A DNA stretch of 54,259 nt from Planctomycetota bacterium (GTDB taxonomy: Bacteria > Planctomycetota > Phycisphaerae > UBA1845 > UTPLA1): contig JAATGM010000053.1 in NCBI GenBank assembly GCA_015654675.1, positions 1-54,259 on the forward strand, in the 5' to 3' direction. Shown here one piece after another: positions 9,383-48,211 of this stretch. A program made the translations under genes and the position numbers. Under the pieces are notes generated by a model. That model did no database searches. It saw nothing but the letters and a program-made list of their open reading frames with translations, and was not told the origin of the DNA. Position 1 is the stretch's first letter; each line of letters begins with the position of its first letter.

Positions 9383-12100
9383 TCAGTAGGCGACGTTATT
9401 TGCCTTACAGAATTGTCGCGCGGAGGGGTCGCCGGCGCGGGCGGCGCGGATGACGTATTCGTTGCCATCGCGGAAGTTTTTCTGCTTGTAGCAATAGAGC
9501 GCGTAGATCCACATGCAGCGCGGGGTGCGGTCTCGGACTGATGCGGCGAGGTCGAAGCCGCGTTTTTTCTGGCGCTCGTCGGACAATTGGGGATCGGGGT
9601 TGAAGGTGTGGTCGTTGCGGTTGTATTGGTAGTCGTAGAAGCGCAGGGCCAGGAGGGCGGTTGCCTCGGCTGAGCCGAGACGGGCGCCGCGCTTGAGAAA
9701 CTCGACTGATTTTTGGGCGTATTCGGTTTTCTTTTCGGGCGGGGCGTCGGCGCCCATGCGACCGTAGAGCTGGCCAGCGTATAGACAGCCGCGGGCGAGG
9801 TTGCCGTTGGCGGCGGCCTCGGCGAAGTGGAGGGCCTGCGGGGTGTCCATTGCGTCGATGCGGCCATCTTCGTCATAGCTGATAAAGGACTCGGCGACGA
9901 GCAGGGCGGCGTAGGCCGAGCCGGCTTCGGCGACGGGCAAGAGCAACTCGCGGAGCTTGCCGATTGCGGCGCGGCTTTCGCGGGTGGCGGTGGGCGTGAA
10001 GGTGTCGGCGGGGAATAGCTCGTAGAAACGCTTGAGGGCTTCGTCGGCCGTTTCGGCGATGGCGGCTTTGTTTGACGCGTCGATGCGAGTGAGACGATTG
10101 AGGTCATCGAAGCAGCTTCGCCACTGATTCCAACGGGATGACTGGATGATGGATGCGCGGAGTGATTGAGGCGTTTCGGCGGTGAGCGGCGGAATTTGAC
10201 GGCCGGAGGTGAGAGAGGGGTCGGTCGGCCGGGTGCGGGTTTGGTCGGTGATGACGGTGCGCGGTGCGCCGGCAAGCGAACCGTCGAACTGGCCTTTTAC
10301 GTCGGGTGAGATCGGGCTGGGACCGTCTACTACGGCCATTGAGTAGTTGAAGAATCGCTGATTGCTGGGCAACTGGTTGTAGGGGAGGAAGACGCCGAAT
10401 TCGGGATAAACGAAGTTGTCGCGATCGGGGTGGATGTCGGCGGAGGTCATGAGCTCGTTATTGGTGTTTCGCCATTCAGGGTTGCGCGAGACGACGGGCT
10501 GATTGTTCGAGTATTTGATGAGGATGGCGAGGCGGCAGTTGCGGCCGCTGGCGTTGTTGATGGCGACATCGGCGAAGAAGACGATGCCGTTGAGGCCGCG
10601 GTGGACGGAGTCGTACTGGACGCGGACGTTGCGGATCGACGCGGTGGGCTTGCCGACCGGGGCCGGAGGAGTGCGCGAATCGCGATCGGATGGGCCCGCG
10701 GGCGGCAATGACTCGCCGCCGGAGAGGAGGGCGTACATGTCGTCGAAGAATTTTCGGTCGACGGGGCCGGTCTGGAATCTGTAGAGGAGTTCGTTCACCG
10801 CGTCCTGCGTCTTGGCGGTGACGTCGCGAAATCCGGCGTCGATGCTGGAACTCGCGAGAGCGCGCTTGAAGTCGTCCTGGACGTCTTCGAGGGTGGCCCG
10901 GACGGAGGCGACGGCAGACTGCTGCTTCGGGCCTGCAAGTGCGGCGCGGAATTGGTCGGAGTTGAGAAAATCCTTGAGTTGAAGGAGGCGGAGGAAACCG
11001 CGTTTGGCGAGCGCTCCCCCCCAGACCGGATCTCGATCGATCGCGCCGTCGAGATCCTGGCGGGCGACGTCGAGCCGGCCGGCGGTGATGCGGGCGATGG
11101 CGCGGTCGTAGAAAGTATCGGAAGTGCCCTCGCCGCGCTCGATGACGACGGTGTAGTCGCGCTCGGCGTCGGCGGGGCGGGATGTCGCCGCGAAGGTGTG
11201 GCCGCGGTTTTCGTAGGCCTCTGATTTTGTCCAGCCGTTTTTGATGGCGAGATCGAACTCGGGCTCGGACTCGGCGAGTTTGCCATCGTTCTGGAAAGAG
11301 CGTGCGCGGAGGTAGTGGGCCTCGCCGTTGTTGGGGTCGTCCTGCAGGAGGGCGTCGGCGTCGCTACGGGCATCGAGGGGTTGATCCATTTGCAGGTAGA
11401 GGCGGGCACGAAGCAGGCGGGCTTCGGTGTCGTGCGGTCGCCAAGAGAGGACCCAACCGAGATTTTCGACGGCCTTGATTGGGTTTTTGTCTTGGCGGGC
11501 GCGATCGGCCATTTGCTTGGCCTGACTGATGCGTTTTTCGAGGTAGAGCCAACCACCGGCGGCAGCGGCGGCGAGCAGGACGCCGGCGATGGCGAGCCAG
11601 CGCGTGATGCGCATGGCGCGTTTGATTTTGCGTCGGGTGGAGTAGGCCATTGTGGAGCGGCGCGCTTGGCGGTTGGCCTGGCCTTCGCCGGCGAGGCGTT
11701 TCATGCCGGTGAGCAGGCGCGGCATGATGACGCTGACGTCGCCGTTTTTCGGGACGACGACGGCGGTGGCGCTGCCGATGGCCTGCTGCCATTTGGGTTG
11801 GCGCTCGCCGAACTCGTCGTAGTCGATGCGGTAGAGAACCGGGACGAAGGGCTTGCGGCATTCGTGGGCGCGGACGACTTCCTTGTCGATCTGGTCGGAA
11901 TCGACGCCACTTGGGGAGATCAGGAGGAGGAAGGCCTTGCAGGCCTCGATGTTGTGGCGGGTGGAGAGGAGATAGTCGTCGCCGGCGCCGACGTCGGCTT
12001 CGTAGCGCCAGGTGCTGAAGCCCTCTTCTTCGAGGCCGGCGGCGAGGGCCTCGGCAATTTCGGTGTCTTCCTGGGCGTAGCTGATGAAAACGTCTGGCAC
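9383..12100 (-). CDS. TIR domain - transmembrane - TPR - Sel1 repeat protein
   Basis: A 905-residue protein. Residues 1-140 form a TIR domain: DVFISYAQED opens strand A, SPSGVDSDQIDKEV contains E74 at the position of the NAD-cleaving glutamate, and FVPVLYRIDYDEF follows. A basic linker leads to a single transmembrane helix at about 168-187 (WLAIAGVLLAAAAAGGWLYL). Tetratricopeptide repeats follow from about 200 to 420 (DARSDADALLQDDPNNGEAH and similar). A beta-rich middle segment near 490-600 precedes Sel1-like repeats at the C-terminus (AYAALLVAESF, GRMGADAPPEKK, SAEATALLALRFYD). The TIR domain would be cytosolic and the repeats on the other face, if the helix spans the membrane. The GTG start at 12100 lacks a strong Shine-Dalgarno but coincides with the domain start. 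Bacterial TIR proteins are often NADases in immunity; here this is a prediction. Confidence 0.85.
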   Translation of the reverse strand: MPDVFISYAQEDTEIAEALAAGLEEEGFSTWRYEADVGAGDDYLLSTRHNIEACKAFLLLISPSGVDSDQIDKEVVRAHECRKPFVPVLYRIDYDEFGERQPKWQQAIGSATAVVVPKNGDVSVIMPRLLTGMKRLAGEGQANRQARRSTMAYSTRRKIKRAMRITRWLAIAGVLLAAAAAGGWLYLEKRISQAKQMADRARQDKNPIKAVENLGWVLSWRPHDTEARLLRARLYLQMDQPLDARSDADALLQDDPNNGEAHYLRARSFQNDGKLAESEPEFDLAIKNGWTKSEAYENRGHTFAATSRPADAERDYTVVIERGEGTSDTFYDRAIARITAGRLDVARQDLDGAIDRDPVWGGALAKRGFLRLLQLKDFLNSDQFRAALAGPKQQSAVASVRATLEDVQDDFKRALASSSIDAGFRDVTAKTQDAVNELLYRFQTGPVDRKFFDDMYALLSGGESLPPAGPSDRDSRTPPAPVGKPTASIRNVRVQYDSVHRGLNGIVFFADVAINNASGRNCRLAILIKYSNNQPVVSRNPEWRNTNNELMTSADIHPDRDNFVYPEFGVFLPYNQLPSNQRFFNYSMAVVDGPSPISPDVKGQFDGSLAGAPRTVITDQTRTRPTDPSLTSGRQIPPLTAETPQSLRASIIQSSRWNQWRSCFDDLNRLTRIDASNKAAIAETADEALKRFYELFPADTFTPTATRESRAAIGKLRELLLPVAEAGSAYAALLVAESFISYDEDGRIDAMDTPQALHFAEAAANGNLARGCLYAGQLYGRMGADAPPEKKTEYAQKSVEFLKRGARLGSAEATALLALRFYDYQYNRNDHTFNPDPQLSDERQKKRGFDLAASVRDRTPRCMWIYALYCYKQKNFRDGNEYVIRAARAGDPSARQFCKANNVAY

Positions 12101-21166: not shown

Positions 21167-23863
21167 TTACGGGCACGAGCCCCCGATTACGCACAACGTG
21201 AACGTGGCAATGTCGCGCCCGTCGAGCGCTCCGTCATGATTCATATCCGCGGCACAGAGTTGCTGGGGTGTGGCGGAAGTCGGCGAGAGGAGCGCGGCCA
21301 CCATGGGGGGGATGTCGGCGGCGTTCCGGTTCCCGTCTGCGTTGAGATCACCGCGCATGACCGGGACGATCGAGGCATTGGCCGGATCGCCGCAGTTGTC
21401 GATTTCGTCGCGGTCGAAGTATCCGTCGCTGTCACGGTCGATGCCCTGGCGCAATTGAGTTCCGGTCGGGACGAGGGTGAACGTGATTTCGTTACCGGCA
21501 GACGCGCCGGTGCGCAGGGTGGTGGGCGAGGTGGTTTCGGTGGAGATGTCGGACTGCATGAGATTTGCGCCGGTGTAAACGTAGCCGCGATCGATGCCCG
21601 CAACGCGGCCCTTGGCGATCATGGCTACGACGCCGCTGTTCGCGAGCGTTACGAACGAGTTGAGGCGGTTGATGAGCGTGGCGTTGGCGTTATTGGTGCC
21701 GTCGAAGGTGACCTGCTGGCCGACGCCGGCATGGGTGTCAGTGTCGAAGCACATGAGGAAGGCCTCGACGTCGCGGCGATTCTGGGGTGCCTGAGGCGGC
21801 GGGCCGAAGTTGAAGCCGGCGTTGAGGAGGGCGTTGAGGGTGTCGAACTCGGAGTGGTGATTGAAGCCGAAGCCCTTGGAGTTGGTGGCCGAGCCGCGAC
21901 GCCAGCCGTCGCGCTCCCAGAGGGCGCGGAGTTGAACGATCTTGAGCGGTTGCGGTGAGAGCGGGAGATTGGGGTCGTCGATCTGCTGGCTGGTGCCTTC
22001 GGGCAGCGTGTGACAGGCGGCGCAGGAAGTATTACCGCCGAGGACCGGCAAGGTGAGATAGAGATTGCGGCCCGTGGTGGGGTTACCGTTACCGCCGCCG
22101 GTGGTGGGGAAGGTGGCGGGCAGAGTGTCGTCAAAGTTTCGGTTGGGACTTGGTGGGTAGTGGATGGTGGCGAGGAAATCTTCGAAGTCGGACATTTCGA
22201 GCGGAGTTGGAAGGGAGTCGGCGCCCTGAAGGCCGGTGAAGGCGACGTCGAACGAGGCGAGATTTTCGCGATCGCCACGCCAGTGGAAGGGCTCGACACC
22301 GATGATGTTTTGGAGTGACTGGGTGATCATGGGGCCTTTCATGGGATGCCAGTCGCGGCAGTTGGGGGTGCGGCAGCTTTCGTTGAAAGTCTTCATCGTG
22401 CCGGCGGGATTGCCGAGGTCCCAGGCGAGGAAGTCGGAGCGGCCATCGATGTGACACGAGGCGCAGGCGACCTGGCCGAGACCGCTGGTGCGGTGGGTGT
22501 CGTAGAGCATGGGGCGGCCGGCCTTCACGGCGGTGGGGGTGGGATCGAAAAATGTGACGCGGTTGAGCTCGCCGTTAGAGGCAGTGCTGACGGTGGAGAT
22601 GGAGGCATCGAACTTGTTGAGGACGTAGAGGTGTTCGCCGTCGAGCGACATGGCGAGACCGGTGGGGCCCTGACCGACGTCGATCTGGGTGACGCGAGCG
22701 CCGGCTCCGTCAATGACGACGACGTTGTTGGAGCCCATTCCGGCGATGTAGCCGCGGGTTCCGTCGATGTTCCAGAGGATGGCGCGGGGATCGCCGAGCG
22801 AGAGATTTCGCTGGACCTGGGGGATGGAATGAACCGTGTAAGTGAGGTGCGGGTTCAGGTCGTTGGTGCTGACGACATTGGGCGTGGCCGGGCTGAATGA
22901 GCCGAGCATGACGCGGATGAAGATGCCCTGGAGGTTGGGCTCGAAGCGCATTTCGTTGATGGCTTCGGTTCCGACGACGGTGACGGCACCGTCGGGCCGG
23001 ACGCCGATGCCCATGACGTTGGTCATGATGCTGCTGGCGTATGAGACGGCGAGGGTCGAGGCGTTGATCATGGCGACGTCGTGGTCGTGAAGATTCCAGG
23101 TGACGAACGTAGACCAATTGCGGCCGTTGCCGTCGAGCCACTGGCCGGCGGAATTGCGGCGAACGATCTGCGCGACTGGCGGCGCGGCGGGGAGGCCGGG
23201 CGTGCGGGGCGGGTTAAAGGCGGTGCCGTTGTTTGGAGGCGGGTTGGTTCCGCCGTAGGGGCCGGCTGGATTGCTGACGTCCTGCTGGCGGATTGCGCCG
23301 GTGGCATTACCGGATTCGAAGATGGCGGCGTAGACAGTTGAGCCGTCGGTGCTGACGGTTAGTGCGCGCGGCTCTTCGCCTTCGATGGCGAGCGTGGTGG
23401 GGGCGGCGCCGGGGTTGGCCGGGTCGAAGACCATGAACTGGTTGCGTTGAGAAATGCTGACGAAGGCGCGCTGCGGCGAGCCAGCGAAAACGACGTCGGT
23501 TGGTTCGTCGGCGGTGGCAATCGTTCGAACGACGCGGCTGGTGGCCAGGTCGATGACACTGATCGAGTCGGAGACGTGGTTCACGACCCAGACCTCGGAA
23601 TTGTTTCGGGCTCGGACGGAGACGGGGTCGAGTCCGACTGAGATGGATCGGATGAGGACGGGTGTGCCACTGGACACATCGAAGACTTCGAGACGGTTAT
23701 CGGCAGTGTTCACTGCGAGGAGGCGAGTGGCGTCAGGGGTGAGAGTGAGGGGGCTGACGTGTGGTGACTCCCAGTGAAAGAAGCCGGTTTGAGCAATGCT
23801 GACGCGGCAGAGAGAGAGAATTGCAGACAGACCCAGTGCCAGACCGATGGATTGACGGTGCAT
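21167..23863 (-). CDS. Secreted YVTN beta-propeller/dihaem cytochrome protein with dockerin-like tail
   Basis: An 898-residue protein with a signal peptide (GLALGLSAILSLCRVSIAQ). Residues 30-450 form a lactonase/YVTN-type beta-propeller, with repeated blades such as NRLEVFDVSSGTPVLIRSIS, SDSISVIDLATSRVVRTIAT and PTGLAMSLDGEHLYVLN. Two haem c attachment sites follow: CASCH at 467-471 and CAACH at 614-618. Between them lie segments like the di-haem cytochrome c peroxidase/MauG group. Near the end is a calcium-binding DRDSDGYFDRDEIDNC segment, then two dockerin-type repeats (MRGDLNADGNRNAADI and AADMNHDGALDGRDIA). The ATG at 23863 has AGGAGG 9 nt upstream. The likely role is extracellular or periplasmic electron transfer or substrate oxidation; the substrate is unknown. 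Confidence 0.88.
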   Translation of the reverse strand: MHRQSIGLALGLSAILSLCRVSIAQTGFFHWESPHVSPLTLTPDATRLLAVNTADNRLEVFDVSSGTPVLIRSISVGLDPVSVRARNNSEVWVVNHVSDSISVIDLATSRVVRTIATADEPTDVVFAGSPQRAFVSISQRNQFMVFDPANPGAAPTTLAIEGEEPRALTVSTDGSTVYAAIFESGNATGAIRQQDVSNPAGPYGGTNPPPNNGTAFNPPRTPGLPAAPPVAQIVRRNSAGQWLDGNGRNWSTFVTWNLHDHDVAMINASTLAVSYASSIMTNVMGIGVRPDGAVTVVGTEAINEMRFEPNLQGIFIRVMLGSFSPATPNVVSTNDLNPHLTYTVHSIPQVQRNLSLGDPRAILWNIDGTRGYIAGMGSNNVVVIDGAGARVTQIDVGQGPTGLAMSLDGEHLYVLNKFDASISTVSTASNGELNRVTFFDPTPTAVKAGRPMLYDTHRTSGLGQVACASCHIDGRSDFLAWDLGNPAGTMKTFNESCRTPNCRDWHPMKGPMITQSLQNIIGVEPFHWRGDRENLASFDVAFTGLQGADSLPTPLEMSDFEDFLATIHYPPSPNRNFDDTLPATFPTTGGGNGNPTTGRNLYLTLPVLGGNTSCAACHTLPEGTSQQIDDPNLPLSPQPLKIVQLRALWERDGWRRGSATNSKGFGFNHHSEFDTLNALLNAGFNFGPPPQAPQNRRDVEAFLMCFDTDTHAGVGQQVTFDGTNNANATLINRLNSFVTLANSGVVAMIAKGRVAGIDRGYVYTGANLMQSDISTETTSPTTLRTGASAGNEITFTLVPTGTQLRQGIDRDSDGYFDRDEIDNCGDPANASIVPVMRGDLNADGNRNAADIPPMVAALLSPTSATPQQLCAADMNHDGALDGRDIATFTLCVIGGSCP

Positions 23864-24042
23864 CGGATGCGGCCTCCTTCCACGAATTTTTGAGTTACCC
23901 GAACACTGCGGTCGCCCCGATTGGGGCGGCCCTGACTGAGCGATTAACGACACCGGGTGTGGCTTATTGCACGCATGCTGAATTTTTTGGAAGCGCGGGG
24001 CGTATAAGGTGATTCACTTCAGATTGAATCTCCGCCAAATGG

Positions 24043-24072
24043 TTGCAATTTTCGCGATGGGGCCGCTATTCT
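24043..24072 (+). promoter_or_regulatory. Candidate promoter of the canonical subtilase gene
   Basis: TTGCAA and TATTCT are spaced by 18 nt, 70 nt upstream of the TTG start at 24142. The divergent 278-nt gap also holds a hairpin with six-base arms (CGCCCC and GGGGCG, 23913-23928) on the side of the propeller/cytochrome gene. Confidence 0.4.
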
Positions 24073-24141
24073 GAAATATATATCGCTCGCCGCGGGCCGA
24101 CCGATTTCGGGCCGCATCTTTGAAGACGAAGGGGTATTACC

Positions 24142-27100
24142 TTGAAGCGCGTTTTGGCCTGGCGTATTGCATCCGTACTTTCAATTCTCGCGGCGATCCT
24201 GGTCGGGACGCTGACGAATTCGGCGATGGGGGAGATCAAATGGCGCGGGTCGAGCGCGCTGATAGCTCGCACGACACCGGCTGAAGCTGCCACGAAGTTG
24301 ACGCAGATTGTGGCGTCGGGTTCGGAGCGGCACGTGGTGTTGCAGTTTTCGAGCCCGGTTGACGACGCTGTTCGTGGGCAGTTGAGAGCGGCCGGCGTGG
24401 AGCTGCTTGCTCCGTTGGGGGACGGCGCATTTTTCGCGGTGGCTCGAAACGCGGGCAAGCTGTCGCGGGCCGGATCGGTGCCGACTTTGCGGGCGGCGGC
24501 GGCGATCGACCGCAGCATGAAGCTTCATTCGCGAGTCACGAGCAATGACTGGCCGGCATATGCGATTGTCGGTAAGGCGGCGAGTGAATCGGAAGATCGC
24601 GTCGCGATTTACGCGGTGTTTCACGGCGATGTTGCGATGAAGCGTGCCGTGGCCACGGCGGTGCGCGCGGGGGCGACAGTGAAGTCGGAGTTGGGGCCGA
24701 TCAACGCGCTGGTGCTGGAATTACCGAAGAGCAGCGTCGCGGCGCTGGCGGACGATGACGGAGTGCAGTGGATTGAGCCACCGATACCGGCGATGTCATC
24801 CACGAACGACAGTAATCGGGCACTGACGCAGGCGGCGACGGTGCAGACGGCCCCGTACAACCTGACGGGGGCCGGGGTGAATGTTCTGGTTTATGACGGC
24901 GGGACGGCGCGATCGACGCACCAGGATTTTGGCGGGCGCGTGACGGTCCGCGACGGATCGGGAATGATCGACCATGCGACGCATGTGTGCGGGACGATCG
25001 GCGGATCGGGTGCGGCGTCGGGCGGGACATTTCGAGGGATGGCGCCGGGCGTGACGATTCAGTCCTACGGATTGCAGACCAACGGCAGCGGCGTATTTCT
25101 TTACACCAACCCGGGCGACCTCATGAGCGACTATTCCGAGGCGATCAACAGCTTCGGCGCTCAGATTGCGAACAATTCGATCGGGACGAACACGGAGACC
25201 AACGGGTTCGACTGCGGGATTCAGGGCGACTACGGCGTGACAGATCAGTTGATCGACTCGATTGTGCGCGGATCGCTGGGCGCGCCGTTTCGGATTTTGT
25301 GGGCGAATGGGAATGAGCGGCAGGGGAACCGCTGCGACGTTGAGGGTTTTGGCGATTTCTACAGCACGGCACCGCCCGCGTGCGCCAAGAACCATATTAC
25401 GGTGGGGGCGGTGAACTCGAATGACGACTCGATGACTTCGTTCAGCAGTTGGGGGCCGGCGGACGATGGGCGGTTGAAGCCCGACATTTCAGGTCCGGGT
25501 TGCCAGTCGAACGGGGACTTCGGGGTGACGTCGTGCCTCGCCTCGAGCGATACGGCTTATGGGGCGGCGTGCGGGACTTCGATGGCGACGCCGACGGTGA
25601 CGGGGCTTTGCGCGCTGTTGTTGGAGGACTTCCGGACGCACTTTGTCGGCTCGGCCGATCCGCGTAATTCGACTTTGAAGATTTTGTTGGCGCAGAATGC
25701 GGTCGATCGCGGGAATGTCGGGCCGGATTTTCAGTTTGGATATGGCTCGGTTCGGATCAAGGACACGATCGATTTCATGCGGTCGGGGAATTTCTTTGAG
25801 AACAGTGTCAGCCAGAGTGGTATCGTCACCACGAGCGTGACTGTCGCGCCGGGTACGCCGCAACTCAAGATCACGCTGGCGTGGGATGATGCGCCCGGAA
25901 CTCCAAACGTGAATCCGGCACTGGTGAATGATCTCGATTTGATTGTCATCAGTCCGAGTTCGGTTCGAGCGTTTCCGTGGACGCTCGATCCGGCGAATCC
26001 GAGTGCTGCGGCGGTGCGGACGCAGGCGGACCATATCAACAATATTGAGCAGGTGGTGGTCGACTCGCCCGCGGCGGGAGTGTGGCAGGTTCAGGTGGTT
26101 GGAACGACGGTTCCGCAGGGGCCGCAGCCGTTTTCACTGTGCGGGTCGCCCAACATCGCACTGCCGGCCGGACTGAGCATCGTGTTGCCGAACGGGACGC
26201 CGGAGGTCATCGCGCCGAATACGCCGACCGTCATCAACGTGCAATTGGTTACGGTCAACGAGTCGATTGTTCCGGGGTCGGCGAATCTGCTTTATCGGTT
26301 CGGGCCGGGGGGTTTTTCATCGACTGCGCTGGTTCCGCAGGGCGGCAATCATTACACCGCGACCCTGCCGGGAACGAGTTGCTCGGGGAGTCCGGAATAC
26401 TATTTCAGCGTGCAGGGCGGGATTGTCGGCACGGTGACGAATCCAACGGCGGCTCCGGCGACGACTTTTTCGTCGCTTGTGGGCGCGATTACGGTGTTGT
26501 TCGACGACGACATGGAACAGGATCGGGGCTGGACCGTCGGGGATGTGGGCGACAATGCCACGACTGGAATCTGGACGCGGGTCGATCCGGTTGGGACGGA
26601 TGCGCAGCCGGAGGATGATCACACGGCTCCGCCGGGGACGATGTGCTGGGTGACCGGGCAGGGCGTGGTCGGCGGCGGCCTGGGCGACAACGATGTGGAC
26701 TCGGGAAAGACGACGCTGGTTTCGCCGACGCTGAATCTTTCCGGGGGCGACGCGGCGATCAGCTATTATCGCTGGTATTCGAACAACACCGGCGGGGCGC
26801 CGAATGAAGACACGTTCCGTGTGGATATTTCCAATGCGAACGGAGCGGCAGGTACGTGGGTGAACGTGGAGACGGTCGGGCCGGCAGGGGCGGGCACGAG
26901 CGGGGGATGGATTTTCCACGAGTTTTCGGTGGGGACGTTCGTGACTCCGACGGCACAAGTGAAGTTGCGGTTCGTTGCGGAGGACGCGTCTACCGGCTCG
27001 CTGATCGAGGCGGCGCTGGATGATTTTCATATTGAACGGTTTTCGTGCGTGGTGGTTCCGTCGTGCGCGCTGCCGGGCGACATGAACGGGGACGGATTAG

Positions 27101-27243
27101 TGAACGGGCGCGACGTACAGGGATTCGTCAGCGCCGAGCTGGTGAGTCCGTTCTACCAAGCGTGCGCGGATATGGTCGCGCCGATCGGCACGTTGAACGC
27201 AGCCGACGTGGCGGCCTTCGTTGATAAGCTGGTGGGACACTAA
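24142..27243 (+). CDS. Secreted subtilisin-family (S8) serine peptidase with dockerin-like tail
   Basis: A 1033-residue exported protease. The signal peptide is long (RVLAWRIASVLSILAAILVG, then TLTNSAMG). A propeptide-like region follows to about residue 220. The catalytic domain has Asp in VLVYDGGTAR (D252), His in DHATHVCGTIGG (H278), Asn in NNSIGTN, and Ser in ACGTSMATPTVTG (S480). After it is a beta-sandwich module (LKITLAWDDAPGTPNVNPA, DLDLIVISP), then a second beta-rich region with DDDMEQDRGWTVGD typical of exported bacterial proteins. The last 60 residues have a dockerin-like GDMNGDGLVNGRDVQGF repeat and a weaker second one. A TTG start is supported by AAGGGG 9 nt upstream and by the signal peptide beginning immediately. 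Confidence 0.9.
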   Translation: MKRVLAWRIASVLSILAAILVGTLTNSAMGEIKWRGSSALIARTTPAEAATKLTQIVASGSERHVVLQFSSPVDDAVRGQLRAAGVELLAPLGDGAFFAVARNAGKLSRAGSVPTLRAAAAIDRSMKLHSRVTSNDWPAYAIVGKAASESEDRVAIYAVFHGDVAMKRAVATAVRAGATVKSELGPINALVLELPKSSVAALADDDGVQWIEPPIPAMSSTNDSNRALTQAATVQTAPYNLTGAGVNVLVYDGGTARSTHQDFGGRVTVRDGSGMIDHATHVCGTIGGSGAASGGTFRGMAPGVTIQSYGLQTNGSGVFLYTNPGDLMSDYSEAINSFGAQIANNSIGTNTETNGFDCGIQGDYGVTDQLIDSIVRGSLGAPFRILWANGNERQGNRCDVEGFGDFYSTAPPACAKNHITVGAVNSNDDSMTSFSSWGPADDGRLKPDISGPGCQSNGDFGVTSCLASSDTAYGAACGTSMATPTVTGLCALLLEDFRTHFVGSADPRNSTLKILLAQNAVDRGNVGPDFQFGYGSVRIKDTIDFMRSGNFFENSVSQSGIVTTSVTVAPGTPQLKITLAWDDAPGTPNVNPALVNDLDLIVISPSSVRAFPWTLDPANPSAAAVRTQADHINNIEQVVVDSPAAGVWQVQVVGTTVPQGPQPFSLCGSPNIALPAGLSIVLPNGTPEVIAPNTPTVINVQLVTVNESIVPGSANLLYRFGPGGFSSTALVPQGGNHYTATLPGTSCSGSPEYYFSVQGGIVGTVTNPTAAPATTFSSLVGAITVLFDDDMEQDRGWTVGDVGDNATTGIWTRVDPVGTDAQPEDDHTAPPGTMCWVTGQGVVGGGLGDNDVDSGKTTLVSPTLNLSGGDAAISYYRWYSNNTGGAPNEDTFRVDISNANGAAGTWVNVETVGPAGAGTSGGWIFHEFSVGTFVTPTAQVKLRFVAEDASTGSLIEAALDDFHIERFSCVVVPSCALPGDMNGDGLVNGRDVQGFVSAELVSPFYQACADMVAPIGTLNAADVAAFVDKLVGH

Positions 27244-40225: not shown

Positions 40226-40738
40226 ATGAAAAGCAGCCCAAGTGAGGTCACCGAATTGGCGTTTCGCGGGTTTGTCCGCGCATCCGGGTTGTTCCGAAAT
40301 CGGATGATTCCGTACTTTGCGCGATTCGGCATCAGCGGGGCGCAATGGGGGATTCTGCGCCAGCTTTATCGGGAGGAGCGCGAGGGCATTAGCGGGCTGC
40401 GGCTGGGCGACCTTGGACGACGCCTGCTGGTCAGACCTCCCAGCGTCACGGGCCTCGTTGAAAGACTTGTACGGATGGGACTCGTCGCGCGCAAAACGGC
40501 GAGCGCCGATCAACGCGCAAAGCATGTCAGTCTGACGGCGAGTGGGCGCAAGCTGGTCGCTCGCGTATTGAAGCAGCATCCCAGCCAGATGCAGTCGATC
40601 ATGGCCTGTTTCAGCATCGATGAACAACGCGATTTCCATCACCTGATGGTCAAGTTCGCGACGCATCTAGAATCGCTCGAGAATGGTCAGGCCGGGAATC
40701 TCGATCATCCGCAGTTCGAAGCCCTGGAGGCCAGATGA
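40226..40738 (+). CDS. MarR-family transcriptional regulator
   Basis: A 170-residue winged helix-turn-helix repressor. The DNA-binding core runs from about residue 35 to 105: ISGAQWGILRQLY, LRLGDLGRRLLVRPPSVTGL (recognition helix) and VERLVRMGLVARKTASADQR with the Asp-Arg of the wing, then AKHVSLTASGRKLV. Flanking helices form the dimer interface. It is the first gene of the efflux operon and overlaps the adaptor gene start by 4 nt (ATGA). A 22-bp palindrome sits over its promoter, so it probably represses itself and the pump until a ligand, perhaps a phenolic or drug-like compound, is bound. The Shine-Dalgarno AGGTGG is about 7 nt upstream. Confidence 0.9.
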   Translation: MKSSPSEVTELAFRGFVRASGLFRNRMIPYFARFGISGAQWGILRQLYREEREGISGLRLGDLGRRLLVRPPSVTGLVERLVRMGLVARKTASADQRAKHVSLTASGRKLVARVLKQHPSQMQSIMACFSIDEQRDFHHLMVKFATHLESLENGQAGNLDHPQFEALEAR

Positions 40739-41985
40739 TGCCGATCGAACAATTGCGCGATCGAATGGCCATGTCCGAGGCGCCGAGTAGACCGGTGAAG
40801 GTGTTACCGCCGCGCAAACGTCGCAACTGGTTGTGGCTGGTGGCAGTTGTCGGGCTGGGTGTGGCGGGATTCGTCGCATACCGACGGCTGCCGGCGCTTC
40901 GCAACTCGATGGGGACCAGCAATAAGCCGCCGAGGGCGCCAGCGCCGCGCGGCGTTCCCGTGATCACTGCGTCGGCGCGGCGCGGCGACCTGCCGATATT
41001 TCTCGATGGTTTGGGGACGGTCACCGCATTTAATACGGTCACGGTTCGAGCGCGGGTGGATGGCCAAGTCGTCAAAGTTGGGTTCGTCGAGGGGCAATTG
41101 GTCAAGGCGGGCGACGTGCTCGCCGAGATTGATGCGCGGCCTTTTCAAGCCGACTTGGACAGCAAGCTTGCAGCGGAAGGGCAGGCGGCGGCGCAACTTG
41201 ATCTCGCGAACGTCACATACACGCGGCTCAAGGGACTGTTACCCGAACGGCTGGCTTCACCGATCGAATTCCAAACGGCCGAAGCAACCTACCGGCAGGC
41301 GCAGGCGGCGCTGGCCGCGGCAAAAGCCAATGTCGAATCTTCGCGGCTGAATGTGGAGTGGTGCCGGATCACGGCGCCGATCTCGGGACGAATCGGCCTG
41401 CGTCTGGTGGATTCAGGAAACCTGGTTCACGCGAGCGATCCCAACGGCATTGCCGTCATCATGCAGCTTCAGCCGATTGCGGTCATTTTCAATCTGCCGC
41501 AGGACGCTTTGCCGGAGGTTCTGAAGGCGAACAGCACCGAGCATCCGCTGGAGGCCCGGGCGTACAGCAGCGACCTCAGGACTTTACTTGCGACGGGGGC
41601 GCTGGTCGCCGTCGACAATCAAATCGACACGGGTACCGGCACGGCGCGGCTCAAGGCCGTGTTTGAGAATCGCGACGACCTGCTCTTTCCCAATCAATTT
41701 GTGAATGTCCGACTTCTGGTTGATACCAAGAAGGACGTTGTGCTTGTACCCACCGCGGCGGTTCAGCGCAGTCCGCAGACAGTTTTCGTCTATGTCGTGA
41801 AAGCGGATCTGACCGCGGAAATGCGACCGATCACGCCGGGCCCAACAGAGCACGGATCGACGATGGTCGAGAAAGGTCTTGAACCCGGCGAAATCGTCGT
41901 GACCGACGGCGTCGACAAGCTTCAACCGGGTTCGCTGGTAATTCCGAGTCCGGCGGATGCGCCCACCTCACGAGCGGCGTCATGA
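40735..41985 (+). CDS. mdtA: RND efflux periplasmic adaptor (membrane fusion protein), MdtA-like
   Basis: A 416-residue protein with one N-terminal membrane anchor ([20 protein letters not shown]) and no lipobox. The lipoyl halves are [20 protein letters not shown] with [20 protein letters not shown], then [20 protein letters not shown]. An alpha-hairpin ([40 protein letters not shown]) and the beta-barrel with [20 protein letters not shown] follow. The layout matches MdtA. It links the inner-membrane RND pump to an outer-membrane channel. The start overlaps marR by 4 nt and its stop overlaps the first permease by 4 nt. Confidence 0.92.
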
Positions 41986-44900
41986 GTCCGTCCCGTCCCT
42001 TCATACTCCGGCCGGTGGCCACCTCGCTTTTGATGGTGGCGCTCACGTTGGTCGGGGCGGTGGCATACCGGCAGCTTCCGGTGTCGGCACTACCGCAGGT
42101 TGATTACCCGACTATTCAGGTTTTGACGTTTTATCCGGGTGCGAGCCCGGACGTGATGGCGTCTTCGGTTACGTCGCCGCTCGAGCGGCAGTTTGGGCAA
42201 CTCCCCGGGCTGGGCCAGATGACGTCGACCAGCTCCGAAGGGAGCTCGGTCATCGTGCTGCAGTTTGCGCTCGATTTGAACATCGATGTCGCCGAACAAG
42301 AGGTTCAGGCCGCGATCAACGCCGCCGGCACTTACCTACCGCGCGATCTTCCCAACCCGCCCGTGTACAGCAAGACGAACCCGGCGGATGCGCCCATTCT
42401 GACGCTGGCGCTGACGTCCGACACGATTCCACTTCCGCAGGTGGAGGATCTGGCCGACACGCGACTGGCCCAGAAAATTTCGCAGGTTCCGGGAGTTGGG
42501 CTGGTCAGCATCAGCGGCGGGCAAAAACCCGCTGTTCGGATTCGAGTGAATCCAACCAAGCTGTCGTCGCTTGGACTGAACATGACCGACGTGCGGACGA
42601 TTGTGGCGCAGGCCAACGTGAATCAGGCCAAGGGGAGTTTCGACGGAACGCACCAGGCACACACCATTGGCGCGAACGATCAGCTGCTGTCGAGCGATCA
42701 GTACAAATCGCTCGTTATCGCCTATCGCCGCGGCGCAGCGGTGCACTTATCCGACATTGCCGACACCGTCGATGATGTTGAAAACGTGCGGCAAGCGGCG
42801 TGGATGAACAGCCAGCCGGCAGTCATCATGAATATCCAGCGGCAGCCCGGCGCGAACATCATCGATGTCGTGGATCGGGTGAAGAAACTGCTGCCGAAAC
42901 TGCAGGCATCGCTGCCGCCCGCCGTCAAAATATCCGTCTTGATCGATCGCACCGTCACTATTCGTGCATCCGTCGATGACGTGAAGTTCGAGCTGATGCT
43001 CACGATCGTGCTGGTCGTGATGGTGATATTCCTTTTCCTGCGAAATCTTGCCGCGACGGTCATTCCGAGTGTGGCCGTGCCGCTATCCATTGTCGGAACG
43101 TTCGGGGTGATGTACGCGCTCGGCTACAGTTTGAACAACCTGTCGCTCATGGCGCTGACCATTTCGACCGGATTCGTCGTCGACGATGCGATCGTCATGA
43201 TCGAAAACATCATCCGGTTCATCGAGGAGGGCGAATCGCCGCTTCAAGCCGCGCTGAAGGGGTCACAACAAATCGGATTTACGATTGTTTCGCTGAGCGT
43301 TTCACTCATCGCCGCCTTGATTCCACTGCTATTCATGGGAGATATCGTCGGCCGGCTCTTCCGCGAATTCGCCGTTACGTTGAGCGTCACGATCGTGGTT
43401 TCGGCAATCGTTTCATTGACTCTGACGCCGATGATGTGCGCACTCACGCTGCGCCACAAACCCGAGGCGCAGCAAGGATGGCTGTATCGATCGACTGAAC
43501 GGGTCTGGCAGGGCTTCATCGACTTCTATTCAAGGACGCTGCAAGTCGTCCTTAGGCACCAGCCGGCCACACTGCTGGTTGCGTTTGCGACGCTCGTCCT
43601 GACGGGAGTGCTCTACGTCGCCGTGCCTAAGGGATTTTTCCCGGTTCAAGACACGGGCGTGATACTGGGAATATCGGAGGCGCCGCAGGACATCTCATTC
43701 AAGGCGATGGCCGAGCGGCAGCAAGAACTCGCAAAGGTGATTCTTCGCGATCCGGCAGTCGAGAATCTGGCTTCGTTTATCGGAGTCGATGGGATCAACA
43801 CCACCATGAACAGCGGCCGAATTCAGATCAATCTGAAGCCGCTTGAAGATCGCAAAATTGACGCTGAAGGAGTCATCCGTCGACTACAGCCCGAGCTTGC
43901 AAGAATTAATGGTATCACGCTGTTTATGCAGCCGGTTCAGGACTTGACGGTCGAAGATCGCGTAAGCCGGACGCAGTTTCAGTACACGCTTGAGGGCGCC
44001 GATGCCAAGGAATTGAGCGTCTGGGTACCCAAGCTGGTGGAGAAGCTGAAGGCGCTGCCTGAACTGCGTGACGTTGCCACGGACCAACAAGACTCAGGAC
44101 TTCGGGCGAACCTCGTGATCGATCGCGATACGGCCTCGCGGCTCGGGATTACGCCGCAAATGGTCGACGACGCACTATACGACGCCTATGGCCAGCGGCA
44201 GATTTCGACGATCTTCACACAACTCAATCAGTATCACGTCGTGCTTGAGCTCAAGCCCGAATTCAGGAAGGCGCCCAAGGCCCTTCGCGACATGTATCTC
44301 CGCACGGCGTCCGGCGGGAAGGTTCCGCTGAGCGTCATTACGCGGCTGGAGGAGTCGACGTCGCCGCTGACCGTCAATCATCAAGGTCAGTTCCCCGTCG
44401 TGACGGTTTCATTCAATCTGGCGCAACATGCGTCGCTGGGCGAAGCGGTCCGTGTGGTTGACGCGGCCAGGCAGGAACTTGGAATGCCGGCGAGCATTCA
44501 AGCACAATTCCAGGGGACCGCGCGCGCGTTTGAGGCATCGCTTACCAATGAACCGCTGCTGATTCTCGCCGCGCTGATCACGGTTTACATCGTGCTGGGC
44601 GTTCTTTACGAGAGCTACATCCATCCGATCACAATTCTCTCGACGCTCCCTTCGGCCGGCGTCGGGGCTTTGCTGGCGTTGATACTCTGCAAGACTGAGT
44701 TCAGCGTCATAGCGCTGATCGGCATCATCCTTCTCATCGGAATCGTCAAGAAAAACGCGATCATGATGATCGACTTTGCGCTCGATGCGGAACGGAACGA
44801 GGGCATGCCGACATCTGAGGCAATTTTCCAGGCGTGCCTGCTGAGATTTCGACCGATTTTGATGACCACCATGGCGGCTCTGCTGGGAGGTCTGCCGTTG

Positions 44901-45089
44901 GCGCTTGGTAGCGGCGTGGGCTCGGAGTTGCGCAGGCCGCTGGGCATCGCGATTGTCGGCGGACTGATATTCAGCCAGGTGCTGACGCTTTATACGACGC
45001 CGGTCATTTATCTCGCGTTTGATCGCCTCGCCAAGCGGTTTCGACGGCCTGCCGCCATCCCTGCTCTTGATCCGCGGGTAGCGTCGTGA
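41982..45089 (+). CDS. mdtB: RND multidrug efflux permease, MdtB-like
   Basis: A 1035-residue inner-membrane proton antiporter of the HAE-1 RND family. The N-terminus ([20 protein letters not shown], then [17 protein letters not shown]) is the first transmembrane helix and start of the porter domain. Proton-relay aspartates lie in [15 protein letters not shown]. The second half repeats the topology, with [20 protein letters not shown], then [20 protein letters not shown] and [20 protein letters not shown]. MdtB and MdtC form a heterotrimer in E. coli, and a second permease gene follows directly. It overlaps the neighbours by 4 nt on both sides (ATGA before, GTGA after). Confidence 0.93.
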
Positions 45090-48000
45090 GTATCTCGGCG
45101 CCTTTTATTCACCGGCCGGTTGGGACGACGCTCTTGACTGTTGCCCTGGCGCTCGCCGGTGCGCTGGGATATTTCTGGCTCCCGGTATCACCGCTTCCGC
45201 AGGTGGAATTCCCGACGATCCAAGTCTCGGCGGGCTTGCCTGGGGCCAGCCCCGAAACAATGGCATCCTCAGTCGCGACACCGCTCGAACGGCAGTTCGG
45301 ACATATTGCCGGCGTTACCGAGATGACGTCGACCAGCTATCTCGGGACCACGAACATCACACTCCAGTTTGAATTGAATCGAAATATTGACGCCGCCTCG
45401 CGCGATGTGCAGGCCGCGATCAATGCCGCGGCGGGGCAGCTCCCGACCAACCTGCCCAACAAGCCGACTTATCGAAAAGTGAATCCCGCCGACGCTCCGG
45501 TACTGATTCTCGCGATTACCTCGGAGCTCTACGATCGTGCACGGATGTACGATGCGGCGGCATCGATCCTTCAGCAAAAACTTTCGCAGGTCGAGGGAGT
45601 CGGGCAGGTCAATGTCGGCGGTGGCGCGCTACCGGCCGTCCGCGTCGATGTGAATCCCACGGCGTTGCACACGCTCGGCCTCGGGCTTGACGACGTGCGG
45701 GCGGCCATTGCGACCGCGAACGCCAATCGGCCGAAGGGCCAGGTTGCGGACGATCGCAGGTCGTGGATATTGAGTACCACTGATCAGCTGCTCAAAGCCG
45801 ACGAATACAAATCTTTGATTATCATGTTTCGAGACGGCGCGCCGGTGCGGTTGTCCGAGGTCGCCACGGTCGTCGATTCGGTGGAAGACGTCCGTACCGG
45901 CGGAATTGCCGACGGCAAGACAGCCATATTGCTCGTCATCTTCCGCCAGCCGGGCGCGAACATCATCGAGACGGTGGATCGTATCCGCGGACTCATGCCG
46001 CAACTGCAGGCCTCGATTCCGGCCGCGATGCGACTTTCCGTTGTGCTTGATCGTTCCACGACGATCCGCGCTTCGGTTCAGGATGTGGAGTTGACGCTTT
46101 GCATCTCGATCGCACTGGTAGTGCTCGTGGTTTTCCTATTTCTGCGAGACGCGCGGGCCACGCTCATTCCGAGCGTCGCGGTTCCGATTTCGCTGATTGG
46201 GACCTTCGGGGTGATGTATCTGGCGGGGTATACGATCGACAATCTCTCGCTTATGGCGCTCACCATCGCCACCGGATTCGTGGTGGATGATGCAATCGTC
46301 GTCATTGAAAATATCACACGGTATCTCGAAGAGGGATTGTCGCCGCTTGAGGCAGCCCTGCGTGGGGCGCGGGAAATTGGCTTTACGGTTGTTTCGATCA
46401 GCGTCTCGCTGGTAGCGGTTTTCATTCCGATTCTGCTCATGCAGGGAATTGTCGGGCGGCTTTTCCGCGAGTTCGCCGTGACCCTGTCGGTCGCGATAGC
46501 GGTTTCGCTGGTGGTCTCTCTGACGACGACGCCGATGATGTGTGCGCAGCTATTGCGGAGCCGGGATAATCGAAAACGCGGCTGGCTTTATCGCCTGAGT
46601 GAGCGCGGATTCGATGGAATTCTGCATTTCTATGAAAAGACACTGTCGGTCGTTCTTCGCCATCCACTCGCGACCATGCTAATCATGCTGGCCACCGTTG
46701 GACTCAATGTCTATCTGTATATTGTCATTCCCAAGGGATTCTTCCCGCAGCAGGACACCGGTCGCCTGACCGGCACGATCATCGCCGACCAGAACGCCTC
46801 GTCGCAATCGGTTCAGCGCATGTTGCTGCAGTTTGCGACCGTGACCGGCAATGACCCGGCGGTCGACAATGTCATTGGGTTTACGGGAGGGAGCGGCGGC
46901 GGCGGCGGAACCCAAAATACAGGGAGGATGTTCGCGACACTCAAGCCGTTGGGAGAACGAAAGCTTAGTGCCGATCAGGTTATTGCGCGGTTGCGCGGAA
47001 AACTGGCGAAGATTCCGGGCGCAACGCTTTACCTGCAGGCCGTTCAGGATCTGCGCGTGGGCGGCCGACCGTCGAGCACGCAATACCAATACACGCTGCA
47101 GGGAAATGACCTGAAGGATCTCACGCAGTGGGCGCCGCGCGTCATGCGTACGATGCAGATGCTTCCCGGGCTGGTCGATGTGGTGAGCGATCAGCAGAAC
47201 AATGGGCTGGAGACCGATCTTACGATCGATCGCGCCACGGCGGCGCGGATGGGACTCAGCGCGCAGTCGATCGACGACGCGCTGTATGACGCGTTCGGAC
47301 AGCGGCAAGTCTCAACGATGTATACTCAATTGAATCAGTATCACGTCGTCATGGAGGTGGATCCGCGGTTTTCCCGAAATCCTGAGAGTCTGCGGCATGT
47401 TTACGTGCGTCCCGCGAGCGGAAAACCGGTGCCTTTGAGCGAGATCGCGAGCGCCAAGCCATCGGCCACGCCGCTGGCCGTCAATCACCAGGGGCAGTTT
47501 CCGGCCGTGACCATTTCGTTCAATCTCTCGCCGGGCACGTCGCTCGGAACTGCGGTCGATGAAATCGAAAAGGCCGGTAGGGAGATGGGTCTGCCCGCGT
47601 CGATCCATGGCAGCTTTGCGGGCACGGCCCAGGCCTTTCAGGATTCGCTCTCCAATGAACCCGTTCTAATTGCCGCTGCACTGGCAGCGGTCTACATCGT
47701 CCTGGGAATTCTTTACGAGAGTCTTATCCATCCAATCACGATTCTTTCGACGTTACCCTCGGCCGGCGTGGGGGCGATTCTCGCGCTACTGCTGTGCCAC
47801 ATGGAACTGAGCGTCATTGCACTGATTGGAATCATTCTTCTAATCGGGATCGTCAAGAAGAACGCAATTCTGATGATCGATTTTGCGTTGGACGCCGAGC
47901 GACGGGAAAGTTTGAGCCCGCGGGATGCGATCTACCAGGCGTGCCTGCTGCGTTTCCGCCCCATTCTCATGACGACGATGGCTGCACTGTTGGGCGGTCT

Positions 48001-48211
48001 GCCGCTGGCGCTTGGCGCCGGTGTGGGTTCTGAGTTCCGGCGGCCGCTGGGGGTTGCGATTGTGGGTGGGTTGATCTTCAGCCAGATCCTTACGCTGTAC
48101 ACGACGCCCGTCGTCTATTTGTACATGGATCGGTTCCGGATCTGGAGCGCGGGGTGGATTCGGTTTGATCGCAGGGGCGGTTTTCCGGAGCTGGCACGGG
48201 AACTGGAGTGA
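45086..48211 (+). CDS. mdtC: RND multidrug efflux permease, MdtC-like
   Basis: A 1041-residue RND permease homologous to its upstream neighbour. The GTG start overlaps the preceding stop by 4 nt. The same landmarks recur: [19 protein letters not shown], the relay aspartates in [15 protein letters not shown], and [20 protein letters not shown] with [21 protein letters not shown] glycine-rich loop ([20 protein letters not shown]) lies in the porter region where the first permease has [16 protein letters not shown], a visible difference between the two subunits. With mdtA and mdtB it would form a heteromeric pump. No TolC-type channel gene follows, so an unlinked channel is needed. Confidence 0.92.

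Follow-up and report, generated by a model that had tools for sequence, protein, structure and literature searches.

Dockerin-like C-terminal tails in a planctomycete genome as a candidate docking tag for a noncellulosomal cohesin–dockerin display system

The 54,259-nucleotide contig JAATGM010000053.1 (C52 in our numbering) of the Planctomycetota bacterium assembly GCA_015654675.1 was analysed over its whole length and is called the window below; the genome comprises 4.93 Mb in 62 contigs and is 96% complete. The subject is a pair of divergent open reading frames (ORFs) at 21167–23953 on the minus strand (928 aa) and 24142–27243 on the plus strand (1033 aa), and above all the tails in which their products end. 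A sequence-only reading of the window had described two exported giants sharing dockerin-like C-terminal tails with GDxNxDGxxNxxD-type repeats. The ORFs, Pfam matches and a signal test agree with two divergent exported proteins with such tails, "giants" being an overstatement for products of 0.9–1.0 kaa, and the repeat pattern, loosely read, fits three of the four loops, the second loop of the plus-strand protein being degenerate.

The minus-strand ORF (21167–23953) encodes an exported propeller/dihaem cytochrome protein with YVTN/lactonase-type propeller matches (Pfam Lactonase), a match to CCP_MauG-like di-haem peroxidases of 22.3 bits, under the cut-off of 25.6, and two CxxCH haem motifs, CASCH at residues 497–501 (22451–22465, minus strand) and CAACH at residues 644–648 (22010–22024, minus strand). 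Because a segment that resembles a signal peptide in our own simple test begins at M31, the likely start is at 23863. The protein ends in a dockerin tail (21170–21352, minus strand), matched by Dockerin_1 (PF00404) at residues 868–916 with 28.3 bits, over the cut-off of 22.9. We call the half of a tail with Gly at loop position 10 the G half and the other the n half; the order here is n-G, the first calcium loop, DLNADGNRNAAD (21314–21349, minus strand), having Ala at position 10 and the second, DMNHDGALDGRD (21212–21247, minus strand), having Gly-Arg at positions 10–11. AlphaFold2 (AF2) predicted a loop-helix-helix-loop-helix arrangement with a mean pLDDT of 94.4. In the fold search, 37 of the 38 PDB matches at E up to 10 were dockerin or cohesin–dockerin entries, with the best at E = 3e-3, none below 1e-3 and one of the 37 spanning 18 columns only. 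The tail models as a dockerin fold with two calcium loops.

The plus-strand ORF (24142–27243) encodes an exported S8 subtilase, starting with TTG and passing the same signal test at its N terminus, with a Peptidase_S8 match of 118 bits at residues 277–535 (24970–25746, plus strand) and the motif GTSMATP at residue 478. Its dockerin-like tail (27076–27240, plus strand) is of the opposite order, G-n, and lies below the Pfam cut-off, with no match in the protein scan at E 1 and a PF00404 match of E = 0.37 in the genome scan; it was recognized from its alignment with other tails of the genome, in an alignment of 49, and from the tails of its orthologues. The first calcium loop, DMNGDGLVNGRD (27079–27114, plus strand), is canonical and forms a G half with Gly-Arg, whereas the second, DMVAPIGTLNAAD (27169–27207, plus strand), forms a non-G half that is degenerate and 13 residues long, with similar loops in the orthologues of G003, G011 and G012. 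In the orthologues of these three genomes and of G015, the half whose position 14 is Gln stays first; G003 and G011 have the Gly of position 10 in this half, G015 has it in the other and G012 in neither. By eye, a degenerate second loop in a non-G half is also seen in the tails ending at C2:40808, C30:72934 and C56:133216.

Tails of this kind are found throughout the genome. Dockerin_1 gave 142 matches at E 1, in 136 frames, and 92 at E 0.001, and since PF00404 scored 150 of the 233 candidates, these counts are lower bounds. The full-genome count that the sequence-only reading had proposed as a check came to 123 terminal tails, that is, frames whose last match starts at most 70 residues from the stop; the remaining 13 of the 136 frames were dropped, six being cut off by the fetched stretch and seven having a nonterminal match. 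Two of 14 control genomes had a match over the PF00404 cut-off and nine some match at E 1. Forty-nine of the tails align with four invariant Asp, and the profile made from them matched 38 PDB sequences, mainly dockerins and some EF-hand proteins. According to our own heuristic, a segment resembling a signal peptide lies within the first 80 residues of 111 of the 121 terminal frames that are complete at both ends, compared with 15 of 105 for the test applied inside the frames and 7 of 21 for tail-less ORFs of the window; an earlier count of 116/121 versus 8/21 was discarded because of unequal search ranges. The idea that the tails are a C-terminal tag shared by many exported proteins is supported by these numbers. 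The terminal tails listed stop at or just past the second repeat and show by eye no obvious membrane segment, unlike C-terminal sorting signals with a hydrophobic segment and a processing enzyme (PEP-CTERM/exosortase, LPXTG/sortase).

The proteins bearing the tails are diverse. Pfam scans covered 98 of the 121 frames in two sets of 74 and 24, frames longer than 1,000 aa and one with an internal stop being excluded. Subtilases were found in four proteins of the first set and two of the second, reprolysin-like (M12B-like) peptidases in 2 of 74 and M14 in 1 of 24; peptidases of M1, M10 and M64 also occurred, along with Ig-type domains, propellers, an esterase, a sulfatase and di-haem cytochrome matches. 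Glycosidases were few (GH8, GH44 and alpha-amylase) and in the scanned lists outnumbered by peptidases, propellers and Ig-type domains. Of the 123 terminal tails, 29 end in Cys-Pro and, by eye, many of these have more Cys between the loops, which suggests a disulphide. Near-identical tailed frames of 323 aa (L070 and L086) lie at contig ends, near 122175 of C25 and near 972 of C36, and are probably an assembly-breaking repeat.

The two halves of most tails differ at loop position 10. Taking the loop as 12 residues, we could parse both halves of 114 of the 123 tails, the other nine having an unparsed half. Exactly one half had Gly at loop position 10 in 102 of the 114, the second half in 60 and the first in 42, and the exceptions had Gly in both halves (8 tails, with 29.8 expected) or in neither (4 tails; Fisher P = 2e-18). 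The counts were the same when positions 10–11 were excluded from the parsing, and among 39 tails of less than 50% identity, 32 had a single Gly (first 17, second 15, both 3, none 4; P = 9e-5). The anticorrelation between the halves was confined to position 10 (z = −6.7), the others of the 18 positions staying within 1.5, and Arg at position 11 was seen in 33 of 118 G halves versus none of 110 other halves. This one-Gly rule is weaker in relatives of the same family, where 33 tails from cohesin-positive genomes had Gly second in 18, first in 5, in neither half in 10 and in both in none (P = 0.013). It could mean that recognition falls to a single half of each tail, marked by Gly and often Gly-Arg at positions 10–11, the other half being nonequivalent. 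As only one half per tail would then be the recognition half, a single binding mode may be expected, and because a 180-degree rotation relates one half to the other, their order would fix the direction in which the cargo points on its scaffold.

We take positions 10–11, by motif rather than by structural alignment, as the likely counterpart of the Gly-Arg recognition site of Ruminococcus flavefaciens. According to the accessible text of PMC5429695 and PMC5301203, the asymmetric halves of the single-binding-mode dockerins of that species speak for a single mode of binding, the recognition residues of groups 3 and 6 are largely reversed although both bind the same ScaC cohesin, and the role of the Gly-Arg pair in recognition is supported by mutation (PMC5301203). 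The asymmetry of the halves is shared with our tails, and the Gly-Arg pair is found there in group 4. On the other hand, as far as these texts go, the order of the halves in R. flavefaciens goes with the group and the Gly-Arg group 4 is symmetric, whereas the present genome has both orders side by side (60 and 42 of 114) in tails that are alike in other respects; the cargo and scaffolds differ as well (PMC5429695, PMC5301203). Clostridial type I dockerins, described in the consulted parts of PMC12484212 and PMC8063739 as symmetric and of dual binding mode, have the fold and calcium loops of our tails but not their asymmetry at position 10; mostly symmetric tails occur in other planctomycete families.

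The sequence-only reading had noted that there is no scaffoldin or cohesin, which is true of the window and untrue of the genome. The Pfam cohesin profile PF00963 found one module over the cut-off and three weaker ones. A cohesin-only profile of our own, A4, found six, in proteins of 391, 1810 and 252 aa on contig C58, 2097 aa on C30 and 493 and 2246 aa on C19; its rows include all six of these modules and many of the relatives' matches, so that A4 counts there are not independent. The case for cohesins was strengthened by a profile built from 23 rows of relatives and none of this genome, which, among 137 of its frames, recovered five of the six modules at E = 3e-17 or better and nothing else. 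A profile from eight rows found by PF00963 recovered four of the six, and profile A1, with five stretches of this genome as rows, found only those five here. Another profile, A2, contained dockerin columns, was flooded by tails and was dropped in favour of A4. Searched against the PDB, A4 gave 31 sequence matches at E 0.01, all of them chains of cohesin entries, two being labelled endoglucanase in entries titled cohesin. AF2 modelled the second domain of the 391 aa protein, whose cohesin lies at C58:38204–38602, with a pLDDT of 94–98 over residues 201–320; this domain gave 81 PDB fold matches below 1e-3, and all 50 of those listed are cohesin entries. The first domain of the protein also looked like a cohesin by eye and was not counted, the pLDDT being below 50 over residues 1–173. 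Judged by sequence, the genome has five firm cohesins and a weak one, on two small dockerin-tailed putative adaptors and four larger proteins. The earlier reading had named cohesin genes of matched specificity as evidence against a role of the tails apart from cohesins, and the first half of that was found, as six modules by the tuned profile and five by the profile free of rows from this genome.

The cohesin genes are partly clustered. Along C58:25232–49721, a giant of 2307 aa is followed by one of 1810 aa, then by the proteins of 391 and 252 aa and finally by a giant of 3337 aa; the two small proteins have C-terminal tails of order G-n of their own. The domains of the giants include LTD, PKD/Ig, laminin-G, TSP3, HYR, CotH and metallophosphatase. 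The 2097 aa protein of C30 combines an LTD match of E = 1.6e-45 with a cohesin that scored 17.9 bits in Pfam, under the cut-off, and E = 1e-34 by the profile without rows from this genome. The 2246 aa protein of C19 has HYR_4C and Dockerin_1 over the cut-off and a cohesin that was unreported in the Pfam domain scan, gave E = 0.05 with PF00963 and E = 3e-17 with the same independent profile. No P-domain was reported in five giants, three scanned at E up to 0.1 and two at E up to 0.01. Six proteins of the genome have in common a module of some 260 aa at the C terminus, which, among 23 genomes of our choice, was found in all 10 with and none of 11 without cohesins. The remaining two, G018 and G019, lack a cohesin and gave partial matches with a stop inside, and the association has P = 3e-6 without them and P = 7e-5 when both are counted against it. 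Of the 34 nonpartial matches to the module, 22 have a cohesin in the same open frame.

Dockerins, cohesins, adaptor-like proteins and a few tailed glycoside hydrolases (GH8, GH44, alpha-amylase) could also be the parts of a classical cellulosome for plant polysaccharides. We consider this hardly credible and rejected it, as the cargo is wrong, with more peptidases, propellers and Ig-type domains than glycosidases, and no multicohesin CBM3 scaffoldin was found in a genome 96% complete with 98 of 121 cargo frames scanned: A4 revealed no protein of this genome with more than one cohesin, and neither the scan of eight ORFs for scaffold-type proteins or adaptors nor the list of cargo families included a CBM3. 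The suggestion that the tails act as a sorting or anchoring tag rather than as cellulosomal dockerins fares well for the cargo, which is mostly noncellulosomal; as a case against cohesins, it is, going by sequence, wrong here.

The reading that we favour, and hold with moderate confidence, is that the tails are true dockerins and serve, across the genome, as the docking tag of a noncellulosomal cohesin–dockerin display system, because export-type N termini, a terminal pair of calcium loops, the dockerin fold predicted for the cytochrome tail and cohesins occur in the same genome. After Sec export, a tail would fold on calcium and dock, with or without an adaptor in between, into a cohesin on a surface-bound scaffold, and some 100 different enzymes and adhesins would thereby be held at the cell surface. 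The small cohesin proteins with their own G-n tails would be the adaptors and the larger ones that share the C-terminal module the scaffolds. The nearest idea in print is the "planctosome" of Nemodlikiaceae (Andrei et al. 2019, PMC6461901), itself a hypothesis. In the accessible part of that source, it resembles the system proposed here in having cohesin and dockerin modules in a planctomycete, a cohesin in an LTD protein (here the 2097 aa protein of C30) and in a dockerin protein with HYR repeats (here the 2246 aa protein of C19), TSP3 repeats, and dockerins on peptidases of the reprolysin-like (M12B) and M14 families. Compared with what is described there, the present genome differs in its 123 terminal tails, which include those of a dihaem cytochrome, propellers and subtilases, in the small adaptors clustered with giants, in the shared C-terminal module of the scaffolds and in the one-Gly rule; the P-domain, part of the planctosome anchor, is the match missing from the five giants scanned here (PMC6461901).

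Several observations weigh against this display reading. The adaptors are not secure: the tail of the 391 aa protein scores 16.2 bits, under the Pfam cut-off of 22.9, and the 252 aa protein is weak altogether, with PF00963 at E = 0.02, no detection by the profile free of rows from this genome and a tail not reported by Pfam. The six cohesins face 123 terminal tails. Among family relatives without cohesins, the one-Gly rule was not significant (second 7, first 3, none 7, both 1 in 18 tails; P = 0.59), and two permuted ancestral tail families could partially mimic it. Dockerins and cohesins also part ways across genomes. In 41 genomes, this one and 40 relatives, dockerins were found in all and cohesins by A4 in 20, leaving 21 genomes with 2–76 dockerin matches and no detected cohesin; PF00963 alone found cohesins in 13 of the 41 at E 0.01 and in 9 over the cut-off. 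We had expected the number of dockerins to follow the cohesins over these genomes, and it does not (medians of 38 with and 27 without, P = 0.38; Spearman 0.20, P = 0.20). The one-contig genome G014 has 54 dockerin matches and no cohesin by A4, and of the genomes G041–G045, outside the 41, neither G045, with 89 dockerin matches, nor G041, titled a complete genome, shows a cohesin by profile; G042 and G044 have cohesins by profile, and G043 gave only a match of E = 0.04.

These genomes lend weight to a cohesin-independent address tag, read by some other surface receptor or sorting factor, with cohesins as a later addition or for a subset of the proteins. The 21 genomes without a cohesin by the tuned profile and the nearly uniform motif of G045, seen in seven of seven sampled tails with 89 dockerin matches and no detected cohesin, fit such a tag, as does "GC-type dockerin domain-anchored protein", the NCBIfam name for a related tail. 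We nevertheless judge it unlikely. The present genome does have cohesins and adaptors, and as the detection rose from 14 of the 41 genomes with A1 to 20 with the wider profile, some of the absence reflects poor sensitivity. In G014 and G007, matches of A2 run from the latter half of the columns for the cohesin into the dockerin, and may represent cohesins that have diverged. Neither another receptor nor a sorting enzyme turned up, although none was searched for. The genomes without a detected cohesin have either cohesins beyond the reach of the profiles or another reader. The NCBIfam model itself (NF041540, dockerin_GC) resembles the present case in treating a terminal dockerin as an anchor; its cut-off of 29 bits was passed by three of nine tails tested, one of the two from G043, one from G045 and one from L262, whereas two tails of the present genome scored 12.5 and 15.4 bits.

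The tails sampled outside the family are mostly symmetric, with halves alike, and several genomes have a motif of their own. The motif is PTDFTAW in 7/7 tails of G045, F-DL(L/V) in 7/7 of G044, G-DL in 6/7 of G043, DLL in 6/6 of G018, DL(F/L/N)--RQ/RR in 5/7 of G034 and NFDI in 3/7 of G041. In G041, G043, G044 and G045, the tail of the cytochrome homologue has the same motif as its genome, and the motif of the homologue in G042 is missing from both of the other tails sampled there (0/2). Before counting, 12 of 80 relatives' tails were dropped as lying more than 80 aa from the stop, open-ended ones included, as were tails of named genomes more than 75 aa from the stop. Across 37 tails from the six non-f1 genomes that had five or more, the identity within genomes exceeded that between genomes by 0.62, 0.53, 0.53 and 0.38 at positions 10, 14, 17 and 13, respectively, by intermediate values of 0.20–0.29 at positions 9, 11, 15 and 16, and by at most 0.15 at positions 2–8 (0.13, 0.12 and 0.08 at positions 2, 4 and 7). 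The pattern suggests selection on a binding face, short of proof, since the motifs were picked after inspection of the tails and the tails within a genome are not all unrelated.

A calcium-stabilized C-terminal cap or linker without any partner would have such loops too, and the duplication of tails could make those of one genome alike. The near-copy tails of G045, the paralogous cargo of the C35 cluster and the nonuniform tails of G041 and G042 agree with this, but the concentration of the excess identity at positions 10, 14, 17 and 13 is not expected from duplication alone and the one-Gly rule holds after redundancy reduction, and we regard a mere cap as quite improbable. A bolder proposal, which we find unlikely, makes the dockerin tail a general address code of these planctomycetes: residues specific to a lineage would be carried by many exported proteins and switched in concert, the permutable unlike halves of the present family would hard-wire the orientation of the cargo, and about half of the genomes would read the code without a recognizable cohesin. 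The motif counts of G041 (3/7) and G042 (0/2) weakened the case for a lineage code and, taken with the gain for cohesins from the profile without rows of this genome, left the overall balance unchanged. Neither the one-Gly rule nor planctomycete lineage motifs were found in print in a search of titles and the starts of abstracts, with subscription papers mostly outside it.

If the display reading is true, cohesin–dockerin display would be a main route of surface assembly in a planctomycete family, with redox enzymes and peptidases and not cellulases as its cargo. The lineage motifs would offer a testable handle on how specificity changes jointly in a receptor and its many unrelated partners, as well as a set of docking pairs from nature that are perhaps orthogonal, and the tag in genomes without a visible cohesin raises the question of its reader there.

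Among the homologues of the cytochrome protein, 80 of 144 were kept, mostly on contigs with planctomycete titles. Six homologues (L262, L263, L265, L268, L269 and L285), from records titled Lysobacteraceae, Tahibacter, Rhodanobacteraceae or Lysobacterales, have a dockerin-like pair and, after it, a few closing residues, for example FAGTFE, FVSTFE or GNGFE. Homologues in L275, L289, L325 and L298, titled Bacteroidia, Limnohabitans or Kuenenia, have GADL-like tails as in planctomycete-titled metagenome-assembled genomes, and the titles of these contigs look doubtful. The printed end of the homologue in L315 has no dockerin pair and instead IPTVSTWG, a hydrophobic stretch and WRR; it resembles an IPTL-CTERM sorting signal, and a tail swap is possible. 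Elsewhere in the window, a 905 aa ORF at 9383–12100 on the minus strand combines a TIR domain with TPR repeats. Three ORFs in series at 40735–48211 on the plus strand, of 416, 1035 and 1041 aa, are probably an RND efflux operon, the second, and the only one scanned, being an AcrB-type pump.

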